Origin: Lotus japonicus
Lineage: Eukaryota; Streptophyta; Magnoliopsida; Fabales; Fabaceae
NCBI RefSeq assembly: GCF_012489685.1
Contig: NC_080044.1
Coordinates: 60,007,507-60,071,506, forward strand
Length of the DNA stretch: 64,000 nt
Direction of reading: 5' to 3'
Part shown: positions 4,520 through 60,128 of the stretch, piece after piece
Position numbering within the stretch: position 1 is the stretch's first letter
Layout of the letters: each line of letters begins with the position of its first letter
Translations under genes and position numbers: made by a program
The notes under the pieces: generated by a model
Database searches by the model: none
What the model saw: the letters and a program-made list of their open reading frames with translations, nothing else
Told to the model about the DNA's origin: nothing

Positions 4520-4524
4520 GGTGG
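4520..4524. repeat. Target-site duplication, left copy (GGTGG)
   Basis: GGTGG lies immediately before the 5' LTR terminus (TGTTAAGCC) and occurs again at 28399-28403 directly after the 3' LTR terminus (GTAAACA). A perfect 5-bp duplication is the expected footprint of Ty3/gypsy integrase, and it fixes both ends of the element. Confidence 0.95.
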
Positions 4525-9073: not shown

Positions 9074-12000
9074 TTCGAGCATGGCTCGAATTTCGACTTA
9101 CGCAGCCGAAAACAAAATAAGAACGGCCTTGGAGGCCGAGAGGATGGCCAAAGAAATGGCTATAGATGAAGCTAGTGTCTCAATCCTGCCCGTCGAATTG
9201 ACACCCCAGGAGGAGGCAACAACAAATAAGGATGACACGTGCATAGAAGAAAACGAGCAGAGTGCCGAGGAATGCGGAATCGAGGACCTTTGCAATCTGA
9301 GGCTAGATTGCATCTATGATGACGACCCATTGGGCTTCGAGAAGCCAGTGGTCGATGTTTCCAAGAAAATGGAAGCGCAAGACCCTTTAGAAGAAGTGGA
9401 CCTGGGTGATGGCTTAGAAAAGAGGCCAACGTACATCAGTGCTCTCATTGACCCGGAGCTAAAAGACAGGATGGTGAAATTACTCAAGGAATTCAAAGAC
9501 TGCTTCGCTTGGGATTACGATGAAATGCCTGGCCTCAGTCGAGAAGTGGTGGAATTGAAGTTACCCATCAAAGAAGACAAGAAACCAATCAAGCAATTGC
9601 CCAGGAGGTTCCATCCAGATGTGTTGGTGAAAATCAAGGAAGAAATCGAAAGACTCCTCAGGTGTAAATTTATCAGAACAGCTCGATATGTGGACTGGCT
9701 AGCCAACGTGGTTCCAGTAATCAAGAAGAATGGAAAGATGAGAGTTTGCATAGATTTCCGAGATCTTAACGCTGCCACTCCAAAAGACGAGTATCACATG
9801 CCTATTGCTGAGATGATGGTGGATTCAGCTGCTGGTCACGAATACTTAAGCTTGTTGGATGGTTACTCAGGCTACAACCAAATCTTCATAGCAGAAGAGG
9901 ACGTGTCGAAAACAGCTTTTCGATGTCCTGGTGCCTTAGGGACATACGAGTGGGTGGTCATGCCATTTGGGTTGAAAAACGCTGGCGCGACCTACCAAAG
10001 GGTAATGAATACCATTTTTCATGATTTTATAGAAACCTTCATGCAGGTTTATATTGATGACATTGTGGTGAAATCCCCATCAAGGGATGACCATTTGTTG
10101 CGTCTAAGGAAATCCTTTGAGAGGATGAGAAAATATGGCTTGAAGATGAATCCCCTTAAATGTGCCTTTGGTGTTATTGCAGGTGATTTTTTGGGTTTTG
10201 TGGTGCATAAAAAGGGCATCGAGATCAACAAGAACAAAGCTAAAGCCATTCTCGACACTAGTCCACCAACCAGCAAGAAACAACTGCAATCACTATTGGG
10301 AAAGATCAACTTCCTAAGGAGATTCATTGCTAACCTCAGTGAGAAGACCAAGTCATTTTCCCCACTTCTTCGACTTAAAAAGGAAGATGCGTTCCGCTGG
10401 GAAGCAGAGCATCAAAAAGCGTTCGATGAACTCAAAGCGTACTTGTCTAGCCCACCTATAATGGCACCACCTATAAGAGGAAAGCCAATGAAGCTGTACA
10501 TCTCTGCCACGGATGGAACCATCGGAAGCATGTTGGCTCAAGAAGATGAAGATAGCAAAGAAAGAGCCATATTTTACTTAAGCAGGGTGTTAAATGATGC
10601 AGAAACTCGATACACCATGATCGAAAAATTGTGTTTATGCTTGTACTTCTCTTGCGTAAAGCTGAAATATTATATAAAGCCAATCGATGTAATGATTTTT
10701 TCTCATTATGATATAATAAAGCACATGTTATCCAAACCTATCTTGCATAGTCGAATTGGTAAATGGGCTTTAGCCCTAACCGAGTATTCACTAACTTATG
10801 CCCCACTAAAGGCAGTTAAGGGACAAGCAATTGCTGACTTCCTGGCAGACCATACTTTGCCTCAAGAAATCATAACTTACGTAGGAATTCAACCTTGGAA
10901 GCTATTTTTCGACGGTTCTAGCCATAAGAATGGTACTGGGATCGGGATGTTCATAGTATCCCCAAGGGGCATCCCCACGAAATTCAAGTTTAGGATTAAG
11001 AGTAACTGCTCAAACAATGAGGCTGAGTACGAGGCATTAACATCAGGCCTCGAGATCCTGATAGCCCTTGGGGCAAAGAATGTCGTCGTAAAAGGGGACT
11101 CTGAGTTGGTAATAAAGCAACTTACCAAGGAATACAAGTGCATTAGTGAAAATCTAGCTAGGTATTACACGAAAGCTAGCAATTTGTTGGCCAAATTCGA
11201 CGAAGCTAGGCTAGGTCACGTTTCCAGAGTGGACAATCAAGAAGCCAATGAATTGGCACAAATCGCGTCAGGATATATGGTCGATAAATGTAGGTTAAAA
11301 GAGCTTATCGAGGTCAAAGAAAAACTAAACCCCTCTAACCTCGACATCCTAGTCATTGACAATATGGCACCTAATGATTGGAGAAAGCCAATTGTCGATT
11401 ACTTGCAAAATCCTGTGGGTACTACAGATAGAAAGACAAAATACAGGGCAATGAGCTATGTCATCATGGGAAACGAGCTATTCAAGAAAAACGTCGACGG
11501 AACACTACTGAAGTGTTTAAGTGAAGACGACGCGTTCATAGCGATCTCGGCCGTTCACGACGGGCTATGTGGTGCCCACCAGGCAGGAATCAAGATGAAA
11601 TGGATCCTATTTCGACAAGGGATGTATTGGCCTACTATTATGAAAGATTGTATGGAGTATGCCAAGAGGTGCCAAGATTGTCAGAGACACGCGGGGATAC
11701 AACATGTGCCAGCAAGTGAATTACACTCGATCATTAAGCCTTGGCCATTCAGGGGTTGGGCTTTAGACCTAATTGGCGAAATTAACCCATGTTCTTCTAG
11801 GCAGCATAAGTACATCATAGTGGCTATAGATTACTTTACCAAGTGGGTAGAGGCAATTCCTCTACAAAAGGTGACCCAGGACACGGTGATCGAGTTCATT
11901 CAGAATCACATAGTGTACCGCTTTGGGCTACCTGAGTCACTTACTACAGACCAAGGCACAGTGTTTGTAGGCCAAAAGGTGGCATCATTCGCAGAATCTT

Positions 12001-12638
12001 GGGGTATAAAACTCCTAACCTCGACCCCCTATTATGCTCAAGCGAATGGTCAAGTCGAAGTGGCCAACAAAACGTTGATCTCCTTGATTAAAAAACATGT
12101 TGGTCGAAAACCTAAAAACTGGCATCAAACGTTAGGCCAAGTGCTTTGGGCTTACAGGAATTCACCTAAGGAATCTACCGGAGCAACGCCTTTTCGACTA
12201 GCATATGGTCAAGAAGCGGTATTACCAGCAGAAGTATATTTACAATCGTGCAGAATTCAAAGGCAAGAGGAAATTCCAAGTGAAGATTATTGGAGTATGA
12301 TGCTTGACGAATTAGTCAATCTCGACGAAGAAAGACTATTGGTGTTGGATACCTTAACCAGGCAAAAGGATCGCATTGCTAAAGCTTATAACAAAAAGGT
12401 TAGAGCTAAGTCTTTTATGCTTGGTGATTACGTATGAAAGGTCGTCTTACCAATTGATAAAAAAGATAAACGTTATGGAAAGTGGGCCCCAAACTGGGAA
12501 GGCCCTTTTACAGTCGAGAAAGTACTTTTGAACAACGCTTATTCGATTAAGGAATTAGGAGGTAATCGACAAATGACGATAAATGGCAAATATTTAAAAA
12601 CGTATAAGCCAACATTGCATGAGATAAACATCGAATAA
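9006..12638 (+). pseudogene. pol: pol polyprotein (RT, RNase H, archaeal-type RNase H, integrase) with a late in-frame stop
   Basis: The open frame from 9006 reaches TGA at 12435-12437 and then stays open to TAA at 12636-12638, so about 66 C-terminal residues are cut off. Reverse transcriptase covers roughly residues 195-375, with YIDD at about 349. A first RNase H follows at about 465-560. A second, archaeal-type RNase H begins near LFFDGSS at residue 632 and is the hallmark of the Tat lineage. The integrase HHCC zinc finger is at about 850-890. The catalytic core has TDQGT near 980 and Glu in GQVEV near 1017. The start is a GTG inside the gag-pro end. Entry into this frame needs a +1 shift from gag-pro, splicing or an internal start. 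The stop falls just after the core, in the integrase C-terminal region. Confidence 0.9.
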
Positions 12639-12726
12639 GAAAGTAAAAAAAAAAAATAAAAATAAATTGCCAAACGCGAATGTTTTATTGAGTAGAATAG
12701 AGCATTACAATTATGGCAAAGGAATT

Positions 12727-13212
12727 TTAAAAGAGAGGGTTGGCCCTACAACTATTGTATCTGGCCCTAAGAGGCTCTATGTGCCTCAAGACATCCTCTT
12801 GTTGGGATTCCAGTCGCGATTTCTCCTGTCGAATATCCAGCTCTTCACGGGCAGTAGAAGAAAGCTTGTCCACCAAGGTTTTCAGAGCTCCCACACTCCC
12901 CTCGGGGCCCGCCTGGCTAAGAGCATCCTTCAACTCTTCAAATTCCTCCATCTTCTCGTCAATCTGGTGTTCAGCAAAGAACACTCGAGCAGTAAGCTCC
13001 CGGTGTTCTTCATATAGAGGTACAGCTTCATGCAGGAGGCTCAAGAACTCCTGAAGAGGAATTCTTACCGAGGCAATAATATTCCTCGAAAGAAGTTGGT
13101 TAATGAGCCCCGTAAGCTCTTCAGCCAAAGGAAGGAAAGAGTGCAATTCCCAGAATAAGTCTTGGTCAAAAGCCAAGTTCCGGATCTGGTTGAGAACACG
13201 ACGGCTAGCAAT
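12727..13212 (-). CDS. Antisense coiled-coil ORF of the retrotransposon (first assembled copy)
   Basis: An open frame of about 161 codons on -, ending 88 bases from the pol stop and convergent with it. It begins ASRRVLNQIR and continues as a Glu/Lys/Leu-rich, probably coiled-coil protein. A TATA box (CTATAAATAG on -) lies about 95 bases upstream at 13307-13316. No ATG is present at the expected start: the codon there (13210-13212) is ATT, and an in-frame TAA lies a little further upstream. The function is unknown. The same sequence at 22435-22920 is the duplicated assembly copy. Confidence 0.5.
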   Translation of the reverse strand: MASRRVLNQIRNLAFDQDLFWELHSFLPLAEELTGLINQLLSRNIIASVRIPLQEFLSLLHEAVPLYEEHRELTARVFFAEHQIDEKMEEFEELKDALSQAGPEGSVGALKTLVDKLSSTAREELDIRQEKSRLESQQEDVLRHIEPLRARYNSCRANPLF

Positions 13213-13306
13213 GGCTGAAGGGATTTATGAAAGCAGGAAAAGAGGTCTGGAAAAGAAACAAGGGAGAGTTTGGAGAAGTTACTGAAAAGAAGTAACCAAA
13301 AACGCT

Positions 13307-13316
13307 CTATTTATAG
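13307..13316 (-). promoter_or_regulatory. TATA box for the antisense coiled-coil ORF
   Basis: CTATAAATAG on the - strand inside the retrotransposon, about 95 bases upstream of the expected start of the antisense ORF at 12727-13212. That spacing suits a TATA-driven transcript with a leader of about 70 bases. Identical at 23015-23024. Confidence 0.5.
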
Positions 13317-13720
13317 GGTAACAACCAAGGAATGCATTAATTAATGGCAATCAGTTGCCAACTCTTCATCTTATGGTTATAGGCCATGTAGATTACCACC
13401 ACCATCGTGAATAGCTTTGGCTTTTAATGAGCAAAGACTTGCATTGAATCAAGAAAACGTGGTATAAGATTGCAATAAATTGGTTCATTCCCCAGAAACA
13501 AAGCGACGACTACGTGAGGGGGTGCAAGGAAGTTTGAACGATGCAACAGTAAATGAATAGCCGTCAAAATAAATGCGTAATGGAAACTGAAAAGACTTGG
13601 CAAATTAAACGTCAAATTATATGGCTTAGGTGCCAAAACCATTGTCGAAATATTACACGCAATTGGCATAGCCATGGTTAGAATTGTGCCATCATTACAT
13701 ATTAAAAAAAAAAAAAAGTC
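13317..13720. other. Spacer between the two antisense genes
   Basis: About 400 bases with only short non-conserved ORFs, ending in a poly-A tract (about 13703-13716). It separates the TATA box of the coiled-coil ORF from the 3' end of the plant-mobile-domain gene. Nothing else was recognised. Confidence 0.5.
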
Positions 13721-16125
13721 CTACAGCAGGGTTTTAAAAGAGTTCAAACAATCAGCAAAGGTGGCAATCTTGGCATCGAGACCCTTCTTCACAGCCTGAT
13801 CAATCTCCAATTCCTTGATAACCTCTTTTGTCGAGATGATCAGAGCCTTGGAGTCTTTAGTAAGCACATCCAACTGATCCTTCACAGCAGGGCCTTCCTC
13901 GACCAAATCAGCTCGCTTTTTCTCCAGTTTGGTAATCTCTCGATGCAGCTCTTCAAGTTTGATGTCGACTTCAGAGATTTCATCTGCGATCAAAACCTTC
14001 CTAGCAGTGAACTTCTTGAAGTCCTCTTTCATTGCTGCAACTTGAGCTTTACCAGCAGAGACTTTTGCTTCCTTAAAGCTGACAGCTTGACCAACGTCCT
14101 TGACTTGATGAAAGGTGGCTGAAGCATCCACTAAAAAAGATTGAAGGTTAGCCAAAGCAGCAGCCTGTTGAGAATCGAGTTTTTGGCCAAGAAGGAAGAC
14201 AAGCAATTCCTTAGCAGCATGGCTCGCTTGAGGATCAGCTTGGATCTGGTCGAGAAACCCATTGGCGAAGACAATAGCCTTCAGCCGACCCATACTCTCC
14301 TCGATCTGCTAAGAATTGGCTACCCCACTTGATTGAGCAGTCTCAGCAGTGGCATCAGCTTGACGGGGTGGAGAGTCCCATTCCAAGGTGCCATCGAGGA
14401 AGCTATCCAAAGCTGCCAGCGGGTCCTCCTCAAATAAAGTGTCGAGCTTTTCACTAGACACATGAGATGAAGAGCCACCCTTGGTTTGAGGCGAATGTTG
14501 CACAATGGCAGTCGATTTTGGAGGAGGCATAGGGCTGTCATCCTTGCTTGGAAGAGGCTCTGTTTCGCGGATGGGAGAAGTTGCACCCTGAGTTTCCTGC
14601 AAGAAAAACCTCTTTAATGCCCTTTCGATAAAGTAAAACGCATATTAGAGGAGTCAAGAAAACATGAAAAGTATAAAGATACCTGGCAAGCAGAGTCCTT
14701 AGAAGGGCTCGAGTTGGTGGAGCTTCTGGAACGGCGAGGAGACTTATGACGAGATTTGCTCCTGACCTTCCTCCTTCCCTCGGATGAGGAGGTCTTTTTA
14801 GCTGAGGATGCAGCCTTGGGAGGTTTCTCGACACCTTCAGTTTTGGATTTTGCAGGAATGGGAGCTGGGGAATTCTCACGGGATGGAGGATTGGAAGTAG
14901 AGTGCTCATGAACATCATCCTAAAGGAAACAAAACAAACAAGAGATGACTCAGATTAGGAAACCACGGGTTAAAAATGTCACAAGGTACCCTCGAGAATG
15001 GAGAACATACCTGAATGGCGGCGCCGCCACCACCCTCTTTGTCATCGACTTCTGTTTGAGCATCAGATGCCAACTTAGAAGCCCCACTAGGGGTGGAAAC
15101 ACCAAACCCCCTTGGCCCTCTTCTGACTGCCGGAAGCAACAGGTTTAGGTTTCCGTTTTCGACTCTGTCGAAAAATACGTCAGCCCATAATCCAAGGAAA
15201 TCGAAAAGGAAAAGGTAAAAGCATGAGGAAAGTACCTTGAGCTTGTCAGCAAGACTGACATCATCATCCTCATCATCATCATCATCATCCTCAATCACGA
15301 CTGGCTTGTCCTTGGAGGAATGAGCCACTGGGGAAATAACTTGAGGAGCTGGTCGAATAATGACTTCAGCTGCAAACAAAGAAAAAATTAAGAAGTAAAA
15401 CAGGAAAACCAAGGCCAAGTCGAAGTATTACCTTGACCAATACGCATGTTCAGCGATATGTGGTTGAAGATTTCGACGGGCACATGATACGGAAAGTTCC
15501 ATAGGTGGTACTTAGTCCAAGTCACTCGCTTTCGAGGAGGTAGAGCTTGATTGGCCAACACATTTATGTTTACATGGTCAACCCATTTAGGCAAGACCGG
15601 TGGAAAAGCCAATGCAAACTTACTCGTAGGCAAAGACGGGAACCTAAAGCCAGTTTTTCGAATAACAAAAGATAGACCTTCCTCACCAGGAGGAACCACT
15701 AACTTGGATTTCTTGGCTTTAAGTTCCCATTTTTGCCTTAATACTTGGGCCGCTTTCGCAACTGTATCTCGAAGGCGAAGAGTTGGGTAATATACCACAC
15801 CAAAGAACTCTTGAAAAGATCGAATTTCTGCCAGGTGCATACCTTTGGTCTTCTTCGGATCCTGCCTCTGCAAAAGAAAAGCATCTGTCATGCATTGCAG
15901 ACAATCGACGAGGGGCTTCGAAATTTGAGCCCAATACTCAGACCACCAGGCTTTGAAAGCATTAGTGGCATAATATGAAGGAGCGTAAGTGAAGGGGCTC
16001 AGGTTGAGGAGTCTCTTGTTATAAAACTGAACAGTCGTGTCGAAAACAGGAGCCCTCTTAATAGTTTCGGGGTACAGGACTAGACTCTTGTCAAATAAAG
16101 TGTTGGGTAGAACTTGGCTAAGCCC
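13721..16125 (-). pseudogene. Antisense plant-mobile-domain gene, first assembled copy, cut by the gap
   Basis: Contains the 3' exons of the gene described at 24017-27158: exon 5 at 14309-14596, exon 4 at 14683-14919, exon 3 at 15011-15164, exon 2 at 15236-15369, and the 3' part of exon 1 from 15432 to the N run. Exon 3 is one base longer here than in the partner copy, which breaks the frame; that difference lies near the contig end and is probably a sequencing error. The coiled-coil frame at 13721-14293 follows after an in-frame TAG at 14309-14311. This should be treated as the same locus as the second copy. Confidence 0.75.
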
Positions 16126-16225
16126 NNNNNNNNNNNNNNNNNNNNNNNNNNNNNNNNNNNNNNNNNNNNNNNNNNNNNNNNNNNNNNNNNNNNNNNNNNN
16201 NNNNNNNNNNNNNNNNNNNNNNNNN
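16126..16225. other. Assembly gap (100 N)
   Basis: Exactly 100 N, the conventional size for a gap of unknown length. The sequences on both sides overlap by about 9.6 kb, so the true gap size is probably negative. Confidence 0.99.
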
Positions 16226-18781
16226 GTACTTCCCGAGTTCTTTAAACCAAAAATGCATTTACCTGGTTCACCACCCTCGCTCCTAGGTCAGTCCATACAT
16301 GGACTCAGTTGGAAAGAATTTTCCATGAACAGTTCTTTAGGGGAGAATGCAAAGTAAGTTTGAAGGATCTGGCTAGTGTTAAAAGAAAGCCAGCAGAGTC
16401 TATTGATGATTACCTAAACAGGTTTAGGATGCTTAAATCCCGATGTTTCACCCATGTCCCTGAACACGAGCTAGTTGTCTTAGCCGCTGGTGGTCTAGAA
16501 TATTCCATTAGAAAGAAAATCGACACTCAGTATATTCGAGATATGTCGTTACTCGCAGATAGAGTGAGGCACATCGAATTGCTAAAGGCCGAAAAATCAG
16601 AGGAAAGGCCAAGACTACTAAGTGGCCAAAGAAGGAGAAGGTAGCGTACATAGATGCGGATTCAGTAGGTCAGAGTCCATGTGTCTATCGAGAAGTCCCG
16701 GCGGACGTCGATTTGAATGACGTCAATCTGGCTGAACTTCAGCCAGGGGATCCTTATGTTTTGTAAAGCATTGAAACCACGTGAAAACAAACTTGGGGAG
16801 GAAACCCCAAGAACACGATTCCTGCTGTGAAAACTTATACTTTTGATGTGGCCAAATGCGATGCAATCTATGATATACTTGTGTCTGATGGTTTGCTTGT
16901 GGTCCCTAAAGACCAAAACTTCCTTCTCTGAACAAAGGAAAGGGAAGAAATATTGCAAATATCACAACTTTTTTGGTCATTGGACCTCACAATGTGTTCG
17001 TTTCAGGGACCTTGTGCAGGGAGCATTGGACTCAGGAAGACTCAAGTATGATGAAAAAGCCAAAGGTCAAATGAAGATCGAATCTGATCCCACTGCAGAT
17101 AGCTGAGGCCAACTATGTAGAGCTTTCTACATTGGCATGGTCGACATTTCCGAAAAGCTGAGTCTGGGTTTGACGCTGGGAGAAGTAAGAGAAGAAACAT
17201 AGCTGTCGAAGAACCAGAGGTTGAGGAAGAAGTGAACTTGGAAGAGGTTTACCCCAAGGCTGGAGAAACCCTTGTCGAGTTTCTATCCCGCAGCAAAAAT
17301 GGCGAGAAAGAAGTTATGCTGTGCCCTCGATACAGCGCTGTTTTCGACAAATCCGCAGCCAAGGCCTATCAAGATTCAGAAATGAAAAGGCATTATCAGA
17401 GGAAGGCTCCTGTATCCAGGAGACTGAGTACCCTCACGAGGAGTGGGTCGAGAGAGACCAGGAACTCGATGGCCATAAAAGGCCAGAAAACAAGCAATAA
17501 AGACAAAACTTACCTCCCCAATGCTGGATTGCCAAGAAACCAATGGTTCGGGCCAGCGCCTCCAAGGCCAAAACCATACCCTAAGTGGCAGAAAATCGAC
17601 TTAGGCCAGGGATCCTCTTACATCAACAATTCCCGGGTGTCACGAAGCTACTCCTATGGCTCTGGGAACTACTATGCTCCTGAACAAATGACCAGGACTC
17701 AGTTCAGGCGTTTTTTGAGGAAAAGGAAAGCTGAGAGGGAAAGAGGTGGCAAGTTCCGTTCACTATGGGACATAAAGCCAGAAGACAACTCTCGCAATGA
17801 ACCTAGTGTGCGTCGATTATCAACCAGCTGGACCACGCCATCAAACAAGGAACAACCGTACCACCAAATCCAGCTAAGGAAAAAGGGAAGGATGTTGTCG
17901 AAGATGAAGATGAAGACATGCTCGAAGATTTCGACGACAGTGATGGAGAAGAGCTTAATATCATCTGCATCGTGTCCATCCTACCTGCAGAATTCGATAG
18001 AATCTCCGAGGTCACTGAAAGCGAGGAAGACTACTATGTCGACGACGAACCAGATGACAATCCTTTGTGTTATTATGTGATGCAGAGAGGATCTGTCGAA
18101 GATGAAAGAGCTATCTTCCAAAGGCCAACCGAGCAAATGAAGAGCCATTTGAAACCGCTATTTGTTTGGGCCAGAGTCGAGGAGAAGGGTGTTAACAAAG
18201 TCCTTGTCGACGGGGGAGCTGCAATCAACCTCATGCCCGGATTTATGCTCAAGAAGTTAGGTAAAACGGAAGCGGATCTAATCTCACATGACATGGTGCT
18301 TTCTGATTATGAAGGAAAGACAGGTTCTTCCCTAGGGGCAATTATGTTGAACATAACCGTAGGAACAGTAGCCCGTTCCACATTGTTCATTGTGGTCCCT
18401 TCAAAGGCCAATTACAATTTGCTGCTGGGAAGAGAATGGATTCATGGCGTGGGGGCAGTGCCTTCGACCTTACACCAACGTATATCCATTTGGAAAGCTG
18501 ATGGAGTTGTCGAAAATGTGCAAGCAGATCAAAGCTACTATTTAGCAGAAACAAGCTACGTTGGTAAGAAGAATTTCGAGAAGAGTTTAGCCACAATTGC
18601 TCCTTTAGACACAGTGGCTAGCCAATACTTCAACCCCTACTCAGAGTACTCAGTAACGTTGGATCCCATCCGGGGCCTAAACCTCAATGAAGCATGCAAA
18701 CCTGATGCCATGAGTGGATGGCACAGTGATGAAGAGAAAGATGCCACTGTTGGGTGGCAAGCCAATGATAAAGATGATTAA
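16226..18781 (+). pseudogene. gag-pro: gag-protease, duplicated assembly copy with frameshifts
   Basis: Same sequence as 6514-9073 but with about a dozen one-base differences between 16226 and 17820, mostly in homopolymers (for example AAA/AAAA, GG/GGG, CC/CCC). They split the frame into several pieces. From about 17820 the copies agree and the protease part is open to 18781. The errors cluster at the contig end, so this is most likely low-quality consensus and not a second, decayed gene. Confidence 0.85.
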
Positions 18782-21700
18782 TTCGAGCATGGCTCGAATT
18801 TCGACTTACGCAGCCGAAAACAAAATAAGAACGGCCTTGGAGGCCGAGAGGATGGCCAAAGAAATGGCTATAGATGAAGCTAGTGTCTCAATCCTGCCCG
18901 TCGAATTGACACCCCAGGAGGAGGCAACAACAAATAAGGATGACACGTGCATAGAAGAAAACGAGCAGAGTGCCGAGGAATGCGGAATCGAGGACCTTTG
19001 CAATCTGAGGCTAGATTGCATCTATGATGACGACCCATTGGGCTTCGAGAAGCCAGTGGTCGATGTTTCCAAGAAAATGGAAGCGCAAGACCCTTTAGAA
19101 GAAGTGGACCTGGGTGATGGCTTAGAAAAGAGGCCAACGTACATCAGTGCTCTCATTGACCCGGAGCTAAAAGACAGGATGGTGAAATTACTCAAGGAAT
19201 TCAAAGACTGCTTCGCTTGGGATTACGATGAAATGCCTGGCCTCAGTCGAGAAGTGGTGGAATTGAAGTTACCCATCAAAGAAGACAAGAAACCAATCAA
19301 GCAATTGCCCAGGAGGTTCCATCCAGATGTGTTGGTGAAAATCAAGGAAGAAATCGAAAGACTCCTCAGGTGTAAATTTATCAGAACAGCTCGATATGTG
19401 GACTGGCTAGCCAACGTGGTTCCAGTAATCAAGAAGAATGGAAAGATGAGAGTTTGCATAGATTTCCGAGATCTTAACGCTGCCACTCCAAAAGACGAGT
19501 ATCACATGCCTATTGCTGAGATGATGGTGGATTCAGCTGCTGGTCACGAATACTTAAGCTTGTTGGATGGTTACTCAGGCTACAACCAAATCTTCATAGC
19601 AGAAGAGGACGTGTCGAAAACAGCTTTTCGATGTCCTGGTGCCTTAGGGACATACGAGTGGGTGGTCATGCCATTTGGGTTGAAAAACGCTGGCGCGACC
19701 TACCAAAGGGTAATGAATACCATTTTTCATGATTTTATAGAAACCTTCATGCAGGTTTATATTGATGACATTGTGGTGAAATCCCCATCAAGGGATGACC
19801 ATTTGTTGCGTCTAAGGAAATCCTTTGAGAGGATGAGAAAATATGGCTTGAAGATGAATCCCCTTAAATGTGCCTTTGGTGTTATTGCAGGTGATTTTTT
19901 GGGTTTTGTGGTGCATAAAAAGGGCATCGAGATCAACAAGAACAAAGCTAAAGCCATTCTCGACACTAGTCCACCAACCAGCAAGAAACAACTGCAATCA
20001 CTATTGGGAAAGATCAACTTCCTAAGGAGATTCATTGCTAACCTCAGTGAGAAGACCAAGTCATTTTCCCCACTTCTTCGACTTAAAAAGGAAGATGCGT
20101 TCCGCTGGGAAGCAGAGCATCAAAAAGCGTTCGATGAACTCAAAGCGTACTTGTCTAGCCCACCTATAATGGCACCACCTATAAGAGGAAAGCCAATGAA
20201 GCTGTACATCTCTGCCACGGATGGAACCATCGGAAGCATGTTGGCTCAAGAAGATGAAGATAGCAAAGAAAGAGCCATATTTTACTTAAGCAGGGTGTTA
20301 AATGATGCAGAAACTCGATACACCATGATCGAAAAATTGTGTTTATGCTTGTACTTCTCTTGCGTAAAGCTGAAATATTATATAAAGCCAATCGATGTAA
20401 TGATTTTTTCTCATTATGATATAATAAAGCACATGTTATCCAAACCTATCTTGCATAGTCGAATTGGTAAATGGGCTTTAGCCCTAACCGAGTATTCACT
20501 AACTTATGCCCCACTAAAGGCAGTTAAGGGACAAGCAATTGCTGACTTCCTGGCAGACCATACTTTGCCTCAAGAAATCATAACTTACGTAGGAATTCAA
20601 CCTTGGAAGCTATTTTTCGACGGTTCTAGCCATAAGAATGGTACTGGGATCGGGATGTTCATAGTATCCCCAAGGGGCATCCCCACGAAATTCAAGTTTA
20701 GGATTAAGAGTAACTGCTCAAACAATGAGGCTGAGTACGAGGCATTAACATCAGGCCTCGAGATCCTGATAGCCCTTGGGGCAAAGAATGTCGTCGTAAA
20801 AGGGGACTCTGAGTTGGTAATAAAGCAACTTACCAAGGAATACAAGTGCATTAGTGAAAATCTAGCTAGGTATTACACGAAAGCTAGCAATTTGTTGGCC
20901 AAATTCGACGAAGCTAGGCTAGGTCACGTTTCCAGAGTGGACAATCAAGAAGCCAATGAATTGGCACAAATCGCGTCAGGATATATGGTCGATAAATGTA
21001 GGTTAAAAGAGCTTATCGAGGTCAAAGAAAAACTAAACCCCTCTAACCTCGACATCCTAGTCATTGACAATATGGCACCTAATGATTGGAGAAAGCCAAT
21101 TGTCGATTACTTGCAAAATCCTGTGGGTACTACAGATAGAAAGACAAAATACAGGGCAATGAGCTATGTCATCATGGGAAACGAGCTATTCAAGAAAAAC
21201 GTCGACGGAACACTACTGAAGTGTTTAAGTGAAGACGACGCGTTCATAGCGATCTCGGCCGTTCACGACGGGCTATGTGGTGCCCACCAGGCAGGAATCA
21301 AGATGAAATGGATCCTATTTCGACAAGGGATGTATTGGCCTACTATTATGAAAGATTGTATGGAGTATGCCAAGAGGTGCCAAGATTGTCAGAGACACGC
21401 GGGGATACAACATGTGCCAGCAAGTGAATTACACTCGATCATTAAGCCTTGGCCATTCAGGGGTTGGGCTTTAGACCTAATTGGCGAAATTAACCCATGT
21501 TCTTCTAGGCAGCATAAGTACATCATAGTGGCTATAGATTACTTTACCAAGTGGGTAGAGGCAATTCCTCTACAAAAGGTGACCCAGGACACGGTGATCG
21601 AGTTCATTCAGAATCACATAGTGTACCGCTTTGGGCTACCTGAGTCACTTACTACAGACCAAGGCACAGTGTTTGTAGGCCAAAAGGTGGCATCATTCGC

Positions 21701-22346
21701 AGAATCTTGGGGTATAAAACTCCTAACCTCGACCCCCTATTATGCTCAAGCGAATGGTCAAGTCGAAGTGGCCAACAAAACGTTGATCTCCTTGATTAAA
21801 AAACATGTTGGTCGAAAACCTAAAAACTGGCATCAAACGTTAGGCCAAGTGCTTTGGGCTTACAGGAATTCACCTAAGGAATCTACCGGAGCAACGCCTT
21901 TTCGACTAGCATATGGTCAAGAAGCGGTATTACCAGCAGAAGTATATTTACAATCGTGCAGAATTCAAAGGCAAGAGGAAATTCCAAGTGAAGATTATTG
22001 GAGTATGATGCTTGACGAATTAGTCAATCTCGACGAAGAAAGACTATTGGTGTTGGATACCTTAACCAGGCAAAAGGATCGCATTGCTAAAGCTTATAAC
22101 AAAAAGGTTAGAGCTAAGTCTTTTATGCTTGGTGATTACGTATGAAAGGTCGTCTTACCAATTGATAAAAAAGATAAACGTTATGGAAAGTGGGCCCCAA
22201 ACTGGGAAGGCCCTTTTACAGTCGAGAAAGTACTTTTGAACAACGCTTATTCGATTAAGGAATTAGGAGGTAATCGACAAATGACGATAAATGGCAAATA
22301 TTTAAAAACGTATAAGCCAACATTGCATGAGATAAACATCGAATAA
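18714..22346 (+). pseudogene. pol: pol, duplicated assembly copy
   Basis: The predicted protein is identical to that of the pol at 9006-12638, including the late TGA (here 22143-22145). That two 'copies' share the same private stop is further evidence that they are one locus represented twice. The domain order is as described for the first copy. Confidence 0.88.
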
Positions 22347-22434
22347 GAAAGTAAAAAAAAAAAATAAAAATAAATTGCCAAACGCGAATGTTTTATTGAG
22401 TAGAATAGAGCATTACAATTATGGCAAAGGAATT

Positions 22435-22920
22435 TTAAAAGAGAGGGTTGGCCCTACAACTATTGTATCTGGCCCTAAGAGGCTCTATGTGCCTCAAGAC
22501 ATCCTCTTGTTGGGATTCCAGTCGCGATTTCTCCTGTCGAATATCCAGCTCTTCACGGGCAGTAGAAGAAAGCTTGTCCACCAAGGTTTTCAGAGCTCCC
22601 ACACTCCCCTCGGGGCCCGCCTGGCTAAGAGCATCCTTCAACTCTTCAAATTCCTCCATCTTCTCGTCAATCTGGTGTTCAGCAAAGAACACTCGAGCAG
22701 TAAGCTCCCGGTGTTCTTCATATAGAGGTACAGCTTCATGCAGGAGGCTCAAGAACTCCTGAAGAGGAATTCTTACCGAGGCAATAATATTCCTCGAAAG
22801 AAGTTGGTTAATGAGCCCCGTAAGCTCTTCAGCCAAAGGAAGGAAAGAGTGCAATTCCCAGAATAAGTCTTGGTCAAAAGCCAAGTTCCGGATCTGGTTG
22901 AGAACACGACGGCTAGCAAT
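22435..22920 (-). CDS. Antisense coiled-coil ORF (second assembled copy)
   Basis: Identical in sequence to 12727-13212. It encodes about 161 residues rich in Glu, Leu, Lys and Gln, with heptad-like spacing over most of the length and no recognised catalytic motif. The expected start codon position (22918-22920) reads ATT, and the upstream TATA box is at 23015-23024. It may be an accessory protein of the element or a degenerate captured host gene. Confidence 0.5.
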   Translation of the reverse strand: MASRRVLNQIRNLAFDQDLFWELHSFLPLAEELTGLINQLLSRNIIASVRIPLQEFLSLLHEAVPLYEEHRELTARVFFAEHQIDEKMEEFEELKDALSQAGPEGSVGALKTLVDKLSSTAREELDIRQEKSRLESQQEDVLRHIEPLRARYNSCRANPLF

Positions 22921-23014
22921 GGCTGAAGGGATTTATGAAAGCAGGAAAAGAGGTCTGGAAAAGAAACAAGGGAGAGTTTGGAGAAGTTACTGAAAAGAAG
23001 TAACCAAAAACGCT

Positions 23015-23024
23015 CTATTTATAG
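23015..23024 (-). promoter_or_regulatory. TATA box for the antisense coiled-coil ORF (second copy)
   Basis: CTATAAATAG on -, at the same relative position as 13307-13316. Confidence 0.5.
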
Positions 23025-23428
23025 GGTAACAACCAAGGAATGCATTAATTAATGGCAATCAGTTGCCAACTCTTCATCTTATGGTTATAGGCCATGTAGA
23101 TTACCACCACCATCGTGAATAGCTTTGGCTTTTAATGAGCAAAGACTTGCATTGAATCAAGAAAACGTGGTATAAGATTGCAATAAATTGGTTCATTCCC
23201 CAGAAACAAAGCGACGACTACGTGAGGGGGTGCAAGGAAGTTTGAACGATGCAACAGTAAATGAATAGCCGTCAAAATAAATGCGTAATGGAAACTGAAA
23301 AGACTTGGCAAATTAAACGTCAAATTATATGGCTTAGGTGCCAAAACCATTGTCGAAATATTACACGCAATTGGCATAGCCATGGTTAGAATTGTGCCAT
23401 CATTACATATTAAAAAAAAAAAAAAGTC

Positions 23429-24016
23429 CTACAGCAGGGTTTTAAAAGAGTTCAAACAATCAGCAAAGGTGGCAATCTTGGCATCGAGACCCTTCTTCAC
23501 AGCCTGATCAATCTCCAATTCCTTGATAACCTCTTTTGTCGAGATGATCAGAGCCTTGGAGTCTTTAGTAAGCACATCCAACTGATCCTTCACAGCAGGG
23601 CCTTCCTCGACCAAATCAGCTCGCTTTTTCTCCAGTTTGGTAATCTCTCGATGCAGCTCTTCAAGTTTGATGTCGACTTCAGAGATTTCATCTGCGATCA
23701 AAACCTTCCTAGCAGTGAACTTCTTGAAGTCCTCTTTCATTGCTGCAACTTGAGCTTTACCAGCAGAGACTTTTGCTTCCTTAAAGCTGACAGCTTGACC
23801 AACGTCCTTGACTTGATGAAAGGTGGCTGAAGCATCCACTAAAAAAGATTGAAGGTTAGCCAAAGCAGCAGCCTGTTGAGAATCGAGTTTTTGGCCAAGA
23901 AGGAAGACAAGCAATTCCTTAGCAGCATGGCTCGCTTGAGGATCAGCTTGGATCTGGTCGAGAAACCCATTGGCGAAGACAATAGCCTTCAGCCGACCCA
24001 TACTCTCCTCGATCTG
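23429..24016 (-). pseudogene. Coiled-coil segment downstream of the plant-mobile-domain gene stop
   Basis: Open frame of about 195 codons in the same frame as exon 5 of the gene at 24017-27158, separated from it only by a TAG (24017-24019). The first in-frame ATG gives 190 residues ending FKTLL. The composition is Lys/Glu/Leu-rich with long heptad-like runs, typical of a coiled coil. It either was the C-terminal part of the mobile-domain protein before a nonsense mutation, or is reached by readthrough. No independent promoter is visible. Confidence 0.5.
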
Positions 24017-27000
24017 CTAAGAATTGGCTACCCCACTTGATTGAGCAGTCTCAGCAGTGGCATCAGCTTGACGGGGTGGAGAGTCCCATTCCAAGGTGCC
24101 ATCGAGGAAGCTATCCAAAGCTGCCAGCGGGTCCTCCTCAAATAAAGTGTCGAGCTTTTCACTAGACACATGAGATGAAGAGCCACCCTTGGTTTGAGGC
24201 GAATGTTGCACAATGGCAGTCGATTTTGGAGGAGGCATAGGGCTGTCATCCTTGCTTGGAAGAGGCTCTGTTTCGCGGATGGGAGAAGTTGCACCCTGAG
24301 TTTCCTGCAAGAAAAACCTCTTTAATGCCCTTTCGATAAAGTAAAACGCATATTAGAGGAGTCAAGAAAACATGAAAAGTATAAAGATACCTGGCAAGCA
24401 GAGTCCTTAGAAGGGCTCGAGTTGGTGGAGCTTCTGGAACGGCGAGGAGACTTATGACGAGATTTGCTCCTGACCTTCCTCCTTCCCTCGGATGAGGAGG
24501 TCTTTTTAGCTGAGGATGCAGCCTTGGGAGGTTTCTCGACACCTTCAGTTTTGGATTTTGCAGGAATGGGAGCTGGGGAATTCTCACGGGATGGAGGATT
24601 GGAAGTAGAGTGCTCATGAACATCATCCTAAAGGAAACAAAACAAACAAGAGATGACTCAGATTAGGAAACCACGGGTTAAAAATGTCACAAGGTACCCT
24701 CGAGAATGGAGAACATACCTGAATGGCGGCGCCGCCACCACCCTCTTTGTCATCGACTTCTGTTTGAGCATCAGATGCCAACTTAGAAGCCCCACTAGGG
24801 GTGGAAACACCAACCCCCTTGGCCCTCTTCTGACTGGCCGAAGCAACAGGTTTAGGTTTCCGTTTTCGACTCTGTCGAAAAATACGTCAGCCCATAATCC
24901 AAGGAAATCGAAAAGGAAAAGGTAAAAGCATGAGGAAAGTACCTTGAGCTTGTCAGCAAGACTGACATCATCATCCTCATCATCATCATCATCATCCTCA
25001 ATCACGACTGGCTTGTCCTTGGAGGAATGAGCCACTGGGGAAATAACTTGAGGAGCTGGTCGAATAATGACTTCAGCTGCAAACAAAAGAAAAATTAAGA
25101 AGTAAAACAGGAAAACCAAGGCCAAGTCGAAGTATTACCTTGACCAATACGCATGTTCAGCGATATGTGGTTGAAGATTTCGACGGGCACATGATACGGA
25201 AAGTTCCATAGGTGGTACTTAGTCCAAGTCACTCGCTTTCGAGGAGGTAGAGCTTGATTGGCCAACACATTTATGTTTACATGGTCAACCCATTTAGGCA
25301 AGACCGGTGGAAAAGCCAATGCAAACTTACTCGTAGGCAAAGACGGGAACCTAAAGCCAGTTTTTCGAATAACAAAAGATAGACCTTCCTCACCAGGAGG
25401 AACCACTAACTTGGATTTCTTGGCTTTAAGTTCCCATTTTTGCCTTAATACTTGGGCCGCTTTCGCAACTGTATCTCGAAGGCGAAGAGTTGGGTAATAT
25501 ACCACACCAAAGAACTCTTGAAAAGATCGAATTTCTGCCAGGTGCATACCTTTGGTCTTCTTCGGATCCTGCCTCTGCAAAAGAAAAGCATCTGTCATGC
25601 ATTGCAGACAATCGACGAGGGGCTTCGAAATTTGAGCCCAATACTCAGACCACCAGGCTTTGAAAGCATTAGTGGCATAATATGAAGGAGCGTAAGTGAA
25701 GGGGCTCAGGTTGAGGAGTCTCTTGTTATAAAACTGAACAGTCGTGTCGAAAACAGGAGCCCTCTTAATAGTTTCGGGGTACAGGACTAGACTCTTGTCA
25801 AATAAAGTGTTGGGTAGAACTTGGCTAAGCCCAAACTGTCGAGAAACCAATTGAGGGTTGTAGCCACATAGAGTGTAGTCACTGCTAGCAAAGCCCACAG
25901 TTAAAACCCTAGGAGATAAGAGGGTCCTCCAAAGTATGATGTGGTGCTCCTTGGGCAACGCAGAATCAGAGGCATTAGGATAAGAATTCCTCAGCCAGAA
26001 AGGGCCACGAATAGCCTTGCTGTAAGGAGAGAAACTGGAACGGTAGTGCTTCAGCTCGAGAAACATGGTAAAGTACTTCCTGAAATCAGCTTCGAAACTC
26101 GACGCATCATAAGCAGGGGTCAGGGTCTCGAGCCTATGGGCATCGATCCTGGTGTTAGAAACAGTTAGAGGATTATCTTGTACCGGTAGAAGAGATTCGA
26201 AGACTGCATTCAACCAAAGTTGAAACAGCCAAAGTGGTCCAGCCGCATTCAGAGAGACGGTCTTAGTATTCCGGATATCCTCGACAGCTTCACTCAGCAT
26301 TTGATACAGGTTGCCAAGGACGAGCCTAGCCATAGCAAGTTGTCGACCCTCGTGAAGCAGATTGGCTAAAGGCAAAAGCTTGGCAGGTATGCGCAAAGAT
26401 TTGGTGCAAAAGACATAAGCAGACAGCCAATACAGCAAGAAAGCGACATGTTCAGCGTCAGACACCTCACCATTCTCGACATAATGGTCCTTAATGAATC
26501 GACTAAAAGAAACGTTGTCAGTAGGGATCGAGATGGGTTTAACAGGAGCAGGTGCAGAGTGATAATCATCACCAATGGGCCACAACCCGGTGATAGCAGC
26601 AACATCCAAGAGGGTGGGGGTGATCATACCAAAGGGAACATGAAGGCAATTAGTGGACCTCTCCCAGAAATAAAGTGCACTCAGCAGCATAGCAGGGTTA
26701 TACGAGATTGGAGATCTCGACAGCTGAATCAAGTCGAGAATCCCTACATCCTTCCAGTGTTGTCTCTTATCTCCCTCAACCCTATCTAACCATTTCAGGT
26801 AGGCCTTGTCGTTAGCAGAAGGGTTAGGAGGGGCTGAACGAAAGGCTCGTTTTGGGTCAGAAAGAAATGGCATACGGTAAGAGGGTTGAAATGCCAAAAT
26901 GAGCTCCTCTCCCCTAACGCTAGGGTGAAATGATTCATGTTCTTCAGGGAGACTATTGGGCCTATCATGCTTCACTACTTTCAAAGGGCCCAAAATGGCG

Positions 27001-27158
27001 CGTAAAGTACCATTAACAGAGAAAGGAATGAGTACCTGGGATTTCCAGATAGCTCTCTTCTCTGCTTCGTTGGGAGGCTCTGGGATTGGCACGCGCTTGG
27101 ACTCATCCAGCTTAAGCTCAGTGGCCAACGGAATGGTTTGCTCAGGATTGGAAGCCAT
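24017..27158 (-). CDS. Antisense five-exon plant mobile domain (aminotransferase-like) gene carried by the retrotransposon
   Basis: Start ATG at 27158 (MASNPEQTIP), about 115 bases after a TATA box at 27276-27283. Exons on -: 27158-25139, 25076-24943, 24871-24719, 24627-24391, 24304-24017. The four introns are 62, 71, 91 and 86 bases, all GT-AG, and the exons join in phase into about 943 codons. Exon 1 encodes the plant mobile domain (aminotransferase-like family; MAIN/MAIL relatives), seen from FLSDPKRAF through the Trp-rich helices and LWLFQLWLNAV. Exon 2 is Asp-rich. Exon 3 has the basic cluster SRKRKPKP, a possible nuclear signal. Exon 4 is Ser/Arg/Lys-rich. Exon 5 is acidic and Pro/Ser-rich. 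The function is unknown; family members act in the nucleus in silencing and development, and many occur in transposons. It overlaps the element antisense and is convergent with pol. Confidence 0.8.
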
Positions 27159-27275: not shown

Positions 27276-27283
27276 ATTTATAA
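27276..27283 (-). promoter_or_regulatory. TATA box of the antisense plant-mobile-domain gene
   Basis: TATAAATA on -, about 115 bases upstream of the ATG at 27158, which fits a start site near 27250 and a leader of about 90 bases. It lies about 310 bases inside the element from the 3' LTR, so the antisense gene has a promoter separate from the LTR. Confidence 0.6.
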
Positions 27284-27585
27284 ACGGAAGGGAAAACGGA
27301 ACCCAAGCCGCATTGAGCAGCAATTTATTAAAATTTGGGGTCCAAGCGATTATTTTATTAGTTAATTCATGTCACCTCTCAGCTTTTTGGCATAGGCGAA
27401 ATCATGGCCCTAAAAAGGCTATAACTGTCAGCTAGTGGAGAAGTCATCAGACGTTATGGCTGCCGATTGGACTTGAAGATCGAATGGTCGAGAGCACAAA
27501 GCATTTGAATCGTTGGAATCGAACGGCTGCGATATAAAAAATGCTTGGTGTCTTTGAGCTAAAGCAGTCGACAACCAACATTTTT

Positions 27586-27595: not shown

Positions 27596-28398
27596 TGTTA
27601 AGCCAAAATTACAAGTACTACAATTCTCGACACCATGGTGCAAAAGTGGTTTCTCGACAGAAAGGGTTGGGCGAAGCCGGCAACTCAGCACACGATGTCC
27701 CTCAAAGACAAGTTAGTAAAAGCCATAACTCGACACACTCAGAAGATGAAGAAATCTCGATGGAAGAGGCAGTTACCGAATAACAAGCAACTACAAGCAC
27801 GTGCGTACACCCACGATGCCACGAATAGCAACAGTTGCCCACGACTCAGAACCATCCACGTGGCAATAGAGTCACGTGCGCGAAGACCATCGGCTAAACG
27901 TGGGGTATGGCGCCAAAATTCAAAACCCACGAAGCCATCGTGCATCCAAGGAAAACCGCCAAGAACATGGGCAGAAAGAACAATATAAATAGAGGAAGCA
28001 GCAGCAGAAGAAAAGGTTCCCAACTAAAAACTCTGAAAATTCACCAAAAGCTCTAAACGTCCGCATCAATGAGACTTCGAGAGCAGAACGTGATGATGGA
28101 GGAGTATGTTGCAGAACCAACGCTTTAGTTTCCCTGCATTTCAGTTTGTTGATTTCCAGTTCTTGCGTGTAGTTTGTTTTGTCGAAATTTGCTTTCATGC
28201 TATTTTAGTTTGCTTGACTGTTTTGTAATCGACTCATATTCAATAAAGTCCAGTTTCGTTTGAGTTGTTTATTGTTGTCGAGAATACACTCGTTCACACA
28301 CTACACTTTGGCAAAGCGTTTTCTCAAAAGGACCCCGAATCTAAACTTCCTTTAGTCGAACTAAGAGGATATTTGTTTACCAAAAATCCGTGTAAACA
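27596..28398 (+). repeat. 3' LTR (803 bp)
   Basis: Starts TGTTAAGCC and ends GTAAACA. TATA box at 27984-27992 and AATAAA at 28242-28247. It ends 173 bases before the serpin ATG on the same strand, so transcripts starting in this LTR could run into the serpin. Confidence 0.95.
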
Positions 28399-28403
28399 GG
28401 TGG
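28399..28403. repeat. Target-site duplication, right copy (GGTGG)
   Basis: Perfect match to 4520-4524, directly after the 3' LTR. Confidence 0.95.
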
Positions 28404-28571: not shown

Positions 28572-29897
28572 ATGGGACGTATAGTTAGAGCAAAAAGGGA
28601 CCTTCGAAAATCAATCAGGTGTCAAACCGATGTTGCCCTCAGCATCACAGAGCATTTATTCTCAAAGGAAGAATATCAGGAGAAGAACCTCATCTTTTCA
28701 CCCTTCTCTCTCCATGCTGTTCTTTGTGTCATGGCTGCGGGTTCAGAAGGCCCCACGCTCGACGAGCTTCTTTCCTTCCTCCGAACTGACTCCATCGACC
28801 ATCTCAACACTCTCTTCTCCCAGCTCGTCTCCGTCCTGCTCTCTGACGCTGCTGCTCCTTCACATCGTCTATCTTTTGTCAATGGAATGTGGGCTGATAA
28901 ATCGGTTTCCCTTTCTCATTCTTTTAAACAACTTGTGGCCACTCATTACAAGGCGACTCTGGCTTCAGTTGATTTTCTGGCCAAGGTACTATCACATTTT
29001 CAAGACCGTCTTAATTTTTTATTGACAAACAAATACTTCTTTTAAAATGTTTATGAAAAAATAATTAATTTTGATTTTGATGTGGTTTTCAAGTTTGACC
29101 AAGTGCGCCATGAAGTGAATTCATGGGTTGAAAGAGAGACGAATGGCCTTATAACAAAGCTTCTTCCTCCCAAGGCAGTAGGCAAGTTAACCAGGCTTTT
29201 CTTTGCAAATGCACTGTACTTAAAAGGTGCGTGGAAACACAAGCTTGATGCTAGAGGCTATTATGATTTTCACCTCCTTAATGGCACCTTAGTCCAGGTT
29301 CCCTTCTTGAGAAGCGAGAAGGAGCAGTTTATTAGCGTTTTTGATGGTTTCAAAGTACTCCGCCTTTCTTATCAACAAGGTCTAGATAAAAAGCGTCGGT
29401 TCTCCATGTACATTTTTCTTCCAGACGCAAAAGATGGACTGTCAGCTTTAATTAAAAAGCTGGCCTCAGAGTCTAATTTCTTGAAAGGCAAGCTTCCTCG
29501 GCAAAAAGTGCAAGTATTTAATTTCAGGATTCCAAAATTCAAGATTTCTTTTACACTTGAAGCTTCTAATATGTTGAAGGAGCTGGGAGTGGTTTCGCCT
29601 TTCTCTGAACGGGATGCAGATTTTACAAAAATGGTGGACTCTCCTTTGGATGGAGAATACGTTGAAAGCATGTTTCACAAAGCTTTCATTGAGGTAAATG
29701 AAGAAGGCACTGAAGCTACAACGACCAGTTCAATGAAGAAGGCGCCGAAGGGTAAAATGTGTTGTACCCGTCGTCCTGGTATAGATTTTGTAGCTGACCA
29801 CCCTTTCCTCTTTTTAATCAGAGAAGATTTGACTGGAACAATCCTCTTTATTGGGCAGGTGCTCCATCCTCTGAAGGTTAGCAATTTCAATATCTGA
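28572..29897 (+). CDS. Serpin (plant serpin-ZX type serine protease inhibitor)
   Basis: Two coding exons, 28572-28985 and 29094-29897, joined by a 108-bp GT-AG intron in phase 0. They give about 405 residues, close to the usual 390 or so. The ATG follows a poly-T/TTTTTAG acceptor, which suggests a 5'-UTR intron. Family signatures are NLIFSPFSLHAVLCVMAAG near the N-terminus, EVNSWVERETNGLI after the splice, LTRLFFANALYLKGAWKHKL in the middle, and FVADHPFLFLI with ILFIGQVLHPL at the end. The hinge EEGTEATTTSS keeps Gly at P15 and small residues, consistent with an inhibitory serpin. The reactive loop is about two residues longer than in Arabidopsis serpin1 and carries CC and RR pairs, so target specificity is hard to predict. 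The N-terminus is about ten residues longer than in AtSerpin1. Plant serpins usually lack a signal peptide and act in the cytosol on proteases, including papain-like enzymes. A young LTR retrotransposon lies directly upstream. Confidence 0.9.
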
Positions 29898-31251: not shown

Positions 31252-31454
31252 GTAAGCGAAATAGAGATGGGTCCTTAATTAGGTGGTAGAGTCAATATTA
31301 GTGGGTTAAAACTTGTGATAGAGCAAATAACTTATGCCATTATTTATTACTATTTCTGATGCCCGTAAATTATTGGTTTATTTCTTCTGGTTTTAATTTA
31401 TTGAATGGATTTTTTTATTACCATCTGGCTCGTTTATTGTAATTACATGCTGAT

Positions 31455-31958
31455 CGGGTCAGCGGCTTCTCAGCTTGCCAACTGCCCCTTCAGAATTCCA
31501 TTTTTCCTTATTAGATCAGCCACCTTACTTTCATAAAAATGATAGATATTTGAGGTAGAAGACAACAGCGGTCCTGGTTTATTGTTCTTAGGAAGACAGC
31601 AGTGATCCTGGTTTAATTGCTTGAAGAAAGCTTGGTTGGTGAAGCCAAGCCTGGCTTAGTGGCTGGACCATCTAAGCCTATGTTTGGTTTTCCATTGGGA
31701 TTGGGATCGGGTCAGCGGCTTCTCAGCTTGCCAACTGCCCCTTCAGAATTCCATTTTTCCTTATTAGATCAGCCACCTTACTTTCATAAAAATGATAGAT
31801 ATTTGAGGTAGAAGACAACAGCGGTCCTGGTTTATTGTTCTTAGGAAGACAGCAGTGATCCTGGTTTAATTGCTTGAAGAAAGCTTGGTTGGTGAAGCCA
31901 AGCCTGGCTTAGTGGCTGGACCATCTAAGCCTATGTTTGGTTTTCCATTGGGATTGGG
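31455..31958. repeat. Perfect tandem duplication, 253-bp unit
   Basis: Unit 1 at 31455-31707 and unit 2 at 31708-31958 appear identical throughout and diverge only at the last two bases. The unit starts CGGGTCAGCGGCTTCTCAGC. It contains no recognised gene. The complete identity means the duplication is very recent or is an assembly slip. Confidence 0.9.
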
Positions 31959-32194
31959 GTGGGTCAAACCAGTTTGCCTCACATCTGTGTATTTGCAATT
32001 TTAAAAGTACATTTACCAAACTTTGTTACACCTCTAAACCCACATTCATCTCAAGAGTCACTTTTCCTAAACCCAGATTGAATTATTCTGTGACATAATT
32101 GAACTCAATTGTCTTTCCCATTCTGGTTTATATAGTTGGTAATGTGTAGTTAGATTATTGGTTACTCAAGTTAGATAATTGGTTTATCGGCTTA

Positions 32195-56490: not shown

Positions 56491-56506
56491 TGTGCCGCTG
56501 GTAACT

Positions 56507-56518
56507 CTATAAATAGGG
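56507..56518 (+). promoter_or_regulatory. LTR TATA box of the Athila-like element
   Basis: CTATAAATAGGG, 16 bases after the palindromic array and about 235 bases before an AATAAA signal. Confidence 0.65.
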
Positions 56519-60120: not shown

Positions 60121-60128
60121 TTTTACTG

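Follow-up and report, generated by a model that had tools for sequence, protein, structure and literature searches.

Plant mobile domains (PMDs) are reported to be old and widespread in Gypsy retrotransposons (PMC5418596, PMC6317226): the PMD-A1 and PMD-A2 clades are described as encoded exclusively by Gypsy elements (PMC5418596), and a PMD has been found in 57% of Ogre elements (PMC6317226). The role of the retrotransposon PMD, the direction of ancestry between Gypsy and host PMDs, and the descent of the host PMDs that act in silencing are stated as open (PMC5418596). Extra open reading frames (ORFs) on the antisense strand have also been described. Gao et al. 2014 (PMC4093653) reported similar systems, Ty3-gypsy families with an antisense ORF2 in common bean and, as LjRetro26, in Lotus, with 226 Lotus matches and sizes of up to 939 amino acids; the term “mobile domain” is absent from that text, which names an SMC domain for some, and introns, selection, fold, and motif content lie outside its treatment of antisense ORF2. 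TRP28 occurs in 97% of Retand clusters (PMC11963269), and gene23 of maize Grande has its own promoter and encodes a nuclear protein (PMC11963269, PMC7264820). A further point of comparison is VANC21 of the VANDAL transposons, the motif of which (YAGTATTAY) is found chiefly in noncoding tandem repeats (PMC5735166). Here, we analyze a stretch of 64,000 nucleotides from Lotus japonicus (contig NC_080044.1, positions 60,007,507 to 60,071,506; the window), in which a young Tat-lineage Ty3/Gypsy long terminal repeat (LTR) retrotransposon carries a spliced PMD gene on the strand opposite gag-pol.

As in the PMD-bearing Tat/Ogre elements (PMD-A), PF10536 belongs here to an additional ORF that a Tat-lineage element carries, and in the tree described below it is split from host-type PMDs; the extra ORF of the Medicago Ogre, however, lies upstream of gag (PMC2533021), whereas the window gene lies between pol and the 3' LTR. 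An antisense ORF at that place is a likeness to Retand, with the difference that Retand antisense ORFs carry TRP28 and the window exon-1 protein a PMD. TRP28 (PF04195) gave no match in the exon-1 protein (only PMD, E up to 5) or in the ORF of the gene's tail (E up to 0.01). PMD genes and antisense extra ORFs in such elements are already known, so that splicing with an alternative donor amounts to a variant at most.

The gene opens with an ATG at 27158 on the minus strand and, with its introns removed, stays open for 943 codons, after which comes a TAG (24019 to 24017). A first-pass annotation, made from the letters of the stretch, had proposed five exons and four GT-AG introns, a PMD, and an ATG about 115 bases after a TATA box. 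The exon-intron structure stood, except that intron 1 has a second candidate donor and that the family's frame is 195 codons longer; the TATA box is present, with TATAAA starting at 27282, 124 bases ahead of the ATG. PF10536 matches at 127.9 bits against a Pfam cut-off of 34.9, over positions 1 to 346 of the 347 in the profile. All four introns are GT-AG, the first junction being of phase 1 and the remaining three of phase 0. Other copies were drawn from a DNA search of the genome, which gave 40 scored places of 98 to 100% identity, window included, out of 492 candidates; those compared were the best 30 of the 40 by exon-1 match, again with the window included, a choice by which decayed copies are under-represented. 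One 3'-rearranged copy (1 of 29) was excluded from the indel, substitution, and TCGA comparisons. The features of the gene, all on the minus strand, are as follows.

27276 to 27284: TATA box (TTTATAAAT), conserved in all 29 other copies compared
25550 to 27158: common part of exon 1, 536 codons plus one base, with the PMD at residues 139 to 503
25139 to 25549: alternative in-frame segment of 411 bases (137 codons), retained in the long form and spliced out in the short one
25077 to 25138: intron 1, 62 bp, or 473 bp with the donor at 25549
24943 to 25076: exon 2
24872 to 24942: intron 2, 71 bp
24719 to 24871: exon 3
24628 to 24718: intron 3, 91 bp
24391 to 24627: exon 4
24305 to 24390: intron 4, 86 bp
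23429 to 24304: exon 5, with the in-frame TAG at 24019 to 24017 in the window copy, past which a coiled-coil-like tail runs on in phase

The encoded protein thus consists of the PMD, then an acidic/basic linker, then the coiled-coil-like tail. Beyond the TAG, 195 more codons follow in phase, up to a stop whose last base is 23429; over this tail, identity to residues 821 to 1015 of a Lotus protein (P0001) is 90%, and another protein (P0007) is weakly similar. Of the 29 other copies, 28 can be aligned at the TAG position, and all of these carry a sense codon; the TAG is therefore, on the sequences compared, a mutation private to the window copy among these copies and not the end point of the family's gene. 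The annotation's view that the gene was functional at insertion is weakened by this, the window copy being interrupted by a stop of its own. A CAT microsatellite at 24966 to 25000, in a stretch encoding poly-Asp, shows whole-codon differences among copies.

The annotated 62-bp intron 1 is GT-AG, in frame, and conserved at its donor, yet at most it is one possibility out of two. Among seven NCBI Lotus models (P0001 to P0004 and P0006 to P0008), six join KKTK or KKTR straight to AE, which in window coordinates places the donor at 25549 and makes the intron 473 bp long (25549 to 25077). P0002 reads through the 137-codon segment and terminates within the 62-bp intron, and P0005, from a source other than the seven NCBI models, likewise reads through the segment, which in the window copy has 42% protein identity to P0005 over 137 residues; the 62-bp intron is used by none of these models, P0005 included. 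Both donors keep the frame because they share an acceptor and differ by 411 bases. Intron 1 probably has an alternative donor, then, and the gene would have two protein forms. Isoform labels are carried by P0001, P0003, P0007, and P0008, and on such protein models these labels usually rest on RNA-seq.

We propose, at a probability of about one-half, that this resident antisense PMD gene, with its own TATA box, encodes a VANC21-like DNA-binding regulator acting in trans, most likely to counteract silencing, with the word TCGA as its code. Antisense mRNA from the gene's own promoter would give the PMD protein, which would return to the nucleus and bind element DNA in trans; as a regulator it would most likely counteract silencing, as VANC21 does, and TCGA, abundant all through the element, would serve as its recognition code. 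The introns presumably persist because the genomic RNA bears the gene in antisense, without splice signals for it, a reason already offered by the annotation and in our judgment a good one. With its private early stop, the window copy would rely on proteins from other copies. The antisense spliced layout illustrates how an element copied through RNA can retain a gene with alternative introns; if the protein binds TCGA and releases the element, sequence-specific anti-silencing would extend from MULE (Mutator-like element) DNA transposons to widespread plant retrotransposons.

Anti-silencing is the nearest functional precedent because of the predicted fold. In one model of the PMD region, the sole notable match in the PDB is VANC21, a DNA-bound anti-silencing protein (structure 9lnj), the fold of its DNA-bound region being the part matched. 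The link to silencing that the annotation had drawn gains indirect support from this prediction, and the idea itself is in print: a review suggests transposon use of PMDs against silencing, with no mechanism given there, and names PMDs encoded by transposable elements (TEs) together with VANC21 as counter-silencing strategies, without a structural link (PMC8616336). VANC21 and the plant mobile domain appear in separate talks in PMC6419827. In the literature searched, neither a VANC21-like PMD fold nor an element-wide enrichment of TCGA was found in print. A VANC-like self-recognizing regulator fits what is seen, in that both proteins are TE-encoded and the window element carries a dense short motif. 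It differs in that VANDAL (MULE) transposons are another class of TE and in that the TCGA of the window element is dispersed, in coding DNA too, without tandem repeats of the kind that hold the VANC21 motif. The sequence domains of VANC, DUF1985 and DUF287, gave no match in the window exon-1 protein at Pfam E up to 5. When the PDB was searched by sequence with a PMD alignment, the best 60 of 230 matches looked like coiled-coil or low-complexity sequence, and VANC21 was absent from these 60, which excludes nothing. With E limited to 10, a viral structure library gave 11 matches, none of them below 0.001, and a control model of a host PMD (predicted local distance difference test score, 47) was not used.

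The element pieces hold 144 TCGA, 3.3- to 3.5-fold the dinucleotide expectation, at densities of 6.2 to 11.5 per kb in the LTR, leader, gag-pol, gap, antisense gene, and the stretch upstream of the gene, as against 1.4 outside. The TCGA index, TCGA/(TTGA+TCAA), is 0.99; within the element, the remaining CG contexts range from 0.08 to 0.40, and TCGA itself drops to 0.08 in the 3' flank. When the protein sequence and codon usage are kept constant, TCGA is the first of 256 tetramers in gag plus pol (62 versus 31.6 expected) and reaches 22 in exon 1 versus 8.6 expected. A sister family, described below, has 37 in pol versus 17.2 expected (0 of 500 shuffles) and an index of 0.72 to 0.73 across the stretches of its gene and pol. 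The bases around the word tend toward T-S-TCGA-S-A. TCGA is the obvious candidate for a target of the PMD protein. The next tetramers over-represented in gag plus pol relative to synonymous shuffles are GCCA and its complement TGGC (z of 4.6 and 3.3), possibly a second word.

The enrichment might instead be independent of the PMD gene, reflecting mutation, methylation protection, or another factor such as packaging, integrase, or a host protein; we regard this as a serious contender, somewhat short of an even chance, and one compatible with the other readings. In its favor, TCGA is enriched across gag-pol as well as the antisense gene, nothing links the protein to TCGA directly, and 25 of 36 TCGA positions in pol and 11 of 17 in exon 1 are common to the sister family, so that inheritance accounts for much of the resemblance. 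Our own proposal is weakened by a fall of the sister index to 0.36 over the 1.2 kb before its gene, by a decay of TCGA among copies that is not significantly lower, and by a Tandem Repeats Finder run that found no tandem target repeats, just an A-rich repeat and the CAT microsatellite. Codon choice, however, goes beyond inheritance: in gag plus pol, 42 of the 50 NTY codons that precede GA have C as their last base (8 have T), versus 93 of 171 where a CG is impossible (p 1e-4), and the trend reverses before GC, GG, or GT, with C in just 11 of 44 (T in 33; p 7e-9), which exceeds mere retention. Eight Lotus control loci with a PMD (L009 to L016; 16 to 31 CG per kb) have TCGA at 0.58 to 1.15 of expectation, and eight host PMD gene loci (L001 to L008) at 0.26 to 1.27. 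The sole LTR-type control, a probable element at 55496 to 62918 of the window, has a TCGA index of 0.05, although its CG contexts are depleted throughout (0.08).

A more tentative possibility is that the gene is resident, as we propose, but that its protein serves the retrotransposition cycle (nuclear import of the pre-integration complex, integration targeting, or RNA control), a role proposed for Grande gene23 and the antisense ORFs of Retand, and not silencing. Antisense ORFs with nuclear proteins and their own promoters have been described, and such roles suggested (PMC7264820, PMC11963269); selection on the frame, moreover, fits a role of this kind equally well. Such a role leaves unexplained why VANC21, which binds DNA and counteracts silencing, is the sole structural match of note, and why TCGA is preferred at the DNA level at synonymous sites. 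Our own proposal has a more far-reaching form, which we consider unlikely: the PMD proteins of Tat elements would be the counterparts of VANC, anti-silencing factors that bind DNA sequence-specifically and share its fold, and TCGA (about TSTCGASA, some 10 per kb) would be a recognition word that the element has written into its LTRs, its gag-pol, and the antisense gene via synonymous codons. If this were true, coding sequence would double as an address label for self-recognition, and an anti-silencing fold would have relatives among the MAIN/MAIL proteins with which the host silences.

Both of the foregoing roles presuppose a functional gene; the frame could also be a functionless relic, open merely because its copies are young, which we consider very improbable. 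The copies are indeed young, and besides the window copy, 7 of 29 others are interrupted in the short form: the short-form frame is open to position 23600 in 22 of 29 other copies (one of these with the intron-1 acceptor lost) and the long-form frame in 21 of 29. ATG, TATA box, and both exon-1 donors are present in all 29. Exon 1 shows no indels in the 29, copies having been chosen by full-length exon-1 match. Counted in 28 copies along its full length, the gene has nine indel events in exons (-6, -3, +3, +6, and five of a single base) and three in introns (-11, -1, +1); just 4 of the 9 exonic events are of whole codons, three of these at the microsatellite, and one single-base event lies at the edge of the scored stretch. 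Variants present in 1 to 8 of the 28 copies were then compared with 2000 shuffles preserving trinucleotide context. The ratio of nonsynonymous to synonymous variants (N/S) was 0.54 of expectation in exon 1 (81 N and 77 S, with a single shuffle of the 2000 at or below this), 0.57 in the tail (84 of 2000), and 0.63 over the whole gene (0 of 2000), but exons 2 to 5 look neutral (0.95) and the 411-base segment stands at 0.80. The small share of whole-codon events, the neutral look of exons 2 to 5, and the 0.80 of the 411-base segment belong on the debit side of our proposal, and the neutrality of exons 2 to 5 speaks for a relic.

The sister family, for which 1733 candidates yielded 57 scored places, was represented by one copy, in which a PMD gene again lies antisense to a pol 88% identical to that of the window family. 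Between the families, exon 1 has a dN of 0.195 and a dS of 1.4 to 2.2, for a ratio of 0.09 to 0.14, a value to be read against our interest in that dS is near saturation and the dN/dS bootstrap unstable; pol has a dN/dS of 0.07 to 0.11, and the 411-base segment a dN of 0.20 to 0.21 and a dS of about 1.06, for a ratio of about 0.2. Because exon-1 N/S is 0.54 within the family and dN/dS about 0.1 against the sister, both of which contradict a relic, the antisense gene is, as far as such comparisons reach, maintained by selection, mainly on exon 1 with its PMD. Comparison with other copies, which the annotation had named as a check, thus bears it out for the conserved frame and exon 1 but not for exons 2 to 5. 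A chance frame was rejected, given the same frame and tail in independent Lotus proteins, the conserved signals in the copies, and the selection tests.

The nearest relatives of the window PMD are Lotus proteins, either of its own family or of the sister one. A tree was built from 43 PMD regions; in it, and it included no labeled PMD-A references, 17 host-type rows (found using the ORF of host locus L007, some of them named MAIN-LIKE 2) lie beyond a 100/100 branch with long stems. Because Gypsy PMDs are reported to be old and widespread and this split separates the window PMD from host MAIN-like PMDs, we regard the gene as an accessory one, resident in its young Tat-lineage Ty3/Gypsy family, and not as a host gene captured recently; the annotation's cellular-type gene carried as cargo finds no support. 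Recent capture, though suggested by the intron-bearing, gene-like anatomy and by the existence of host PMD genes in Lotus, is scarcely credible and was rejected on the tree, on the presence of the gene at the same place in two Lotus families with an exon-1 dS above 1, and on the published clades encoded exclusively by Gypsy elements (PMC5418596).

The eight Lotus control loci have no match to the window pol and a weak PMD similarity (best E 2e-5, window protein). We take them to be MULE-type or other PMD loci, and some of their reading frames appear to resemble MULE; if they are MULE-like, the PMD is carried by two transposon classes in Lotus.

The element that carries the gene has the following features.

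4520 to 4524: target-site duplication GGTGG, 5' side
4525 to 5326, plus strand: 5' LTR (802 bp), 798/803 identity with 27596 to 28398
6509 to 9073, plus strand: gag ORF (protease putative), Retrotrans_gag at 46.7 bits
9006 to 12437, plus strand: pol ORF with reverse transcriptase (RT), RNase H (RH), a second RNase H-like domain, and integrase (INT), by profile matches
13721 to 16125, minus strand: 3' part of the antisense gene, its second appearance across the gap, with 5 differing positions
16126 to 16225: 100-N scaffold gap, with the same sequence on either side (6514 to 16125 and 16226 to 25832)
27596 to 28398, plus strand: 3' LTR (803 bp), pairing with 4525 to 5326
28399 to 28403: target-site duplication GGTGG, 3' side

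The LTRs, the target-site duplication, and a gag-pol with INT after RT place the element in the Tat lineage of Ty3/Gypsy. The order of the pol domains (RT_RNaseH at 493 to 594, RVT_3 at 635 to 752, rve at 914 to 1010) puts an additional RNase H, of archaeal type, between RH and INT, the Ogre/Retand arrangement. The gag and pol ORFs lie in different frames and share 68 bases. The LTR identity of 99.4% (798/803) given by the annotation was reproduced, with GGTGG flanking the pair, and domain order, LTRs, and a frame that recurs among copies uphold its central claim of an intron-containing antisense gene within a young Tat-lineage element.

The flanks of the scaffold gap, 9.6 kb each, are 99.8% identical, with 13 gap openings and 5 mismatches, and the TAG of the antisense gene occurs on both sides. 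A real tandem duplication of the element interior was ruled out, the junction being 100 N and the flanks identical at 99.8%. The simplest reading of the apparent 9.6-kb tandem repeat is that two unmerged contigs, both ending in one element, were set side by side, and the true length of the element would then be about 14.2 kb.

Among other observations, Rfam at gathering scores gave no match in 4000 to 32000 of the window, 34 pattern matches to viral contigs included none that was confirmed, and plasmids gave no match. The element lies directly upstream of a serpin gene (28572 to 29897; two ORFs, at 66.9 and 221.4 bits), which starts about 170 bases past the 3' LTR. The stretch at 55496 to 62918 is probably an LTR element or its remnant: 62136 to 62918 recurs at about 96% identity as 55496 to 55873 and 57309 to 57719, with about 1.4 kb between the two pieces. 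At 31452 to 31966, a direct repeat of about 253 bases stands head to tail at about 99 to 100% identity.

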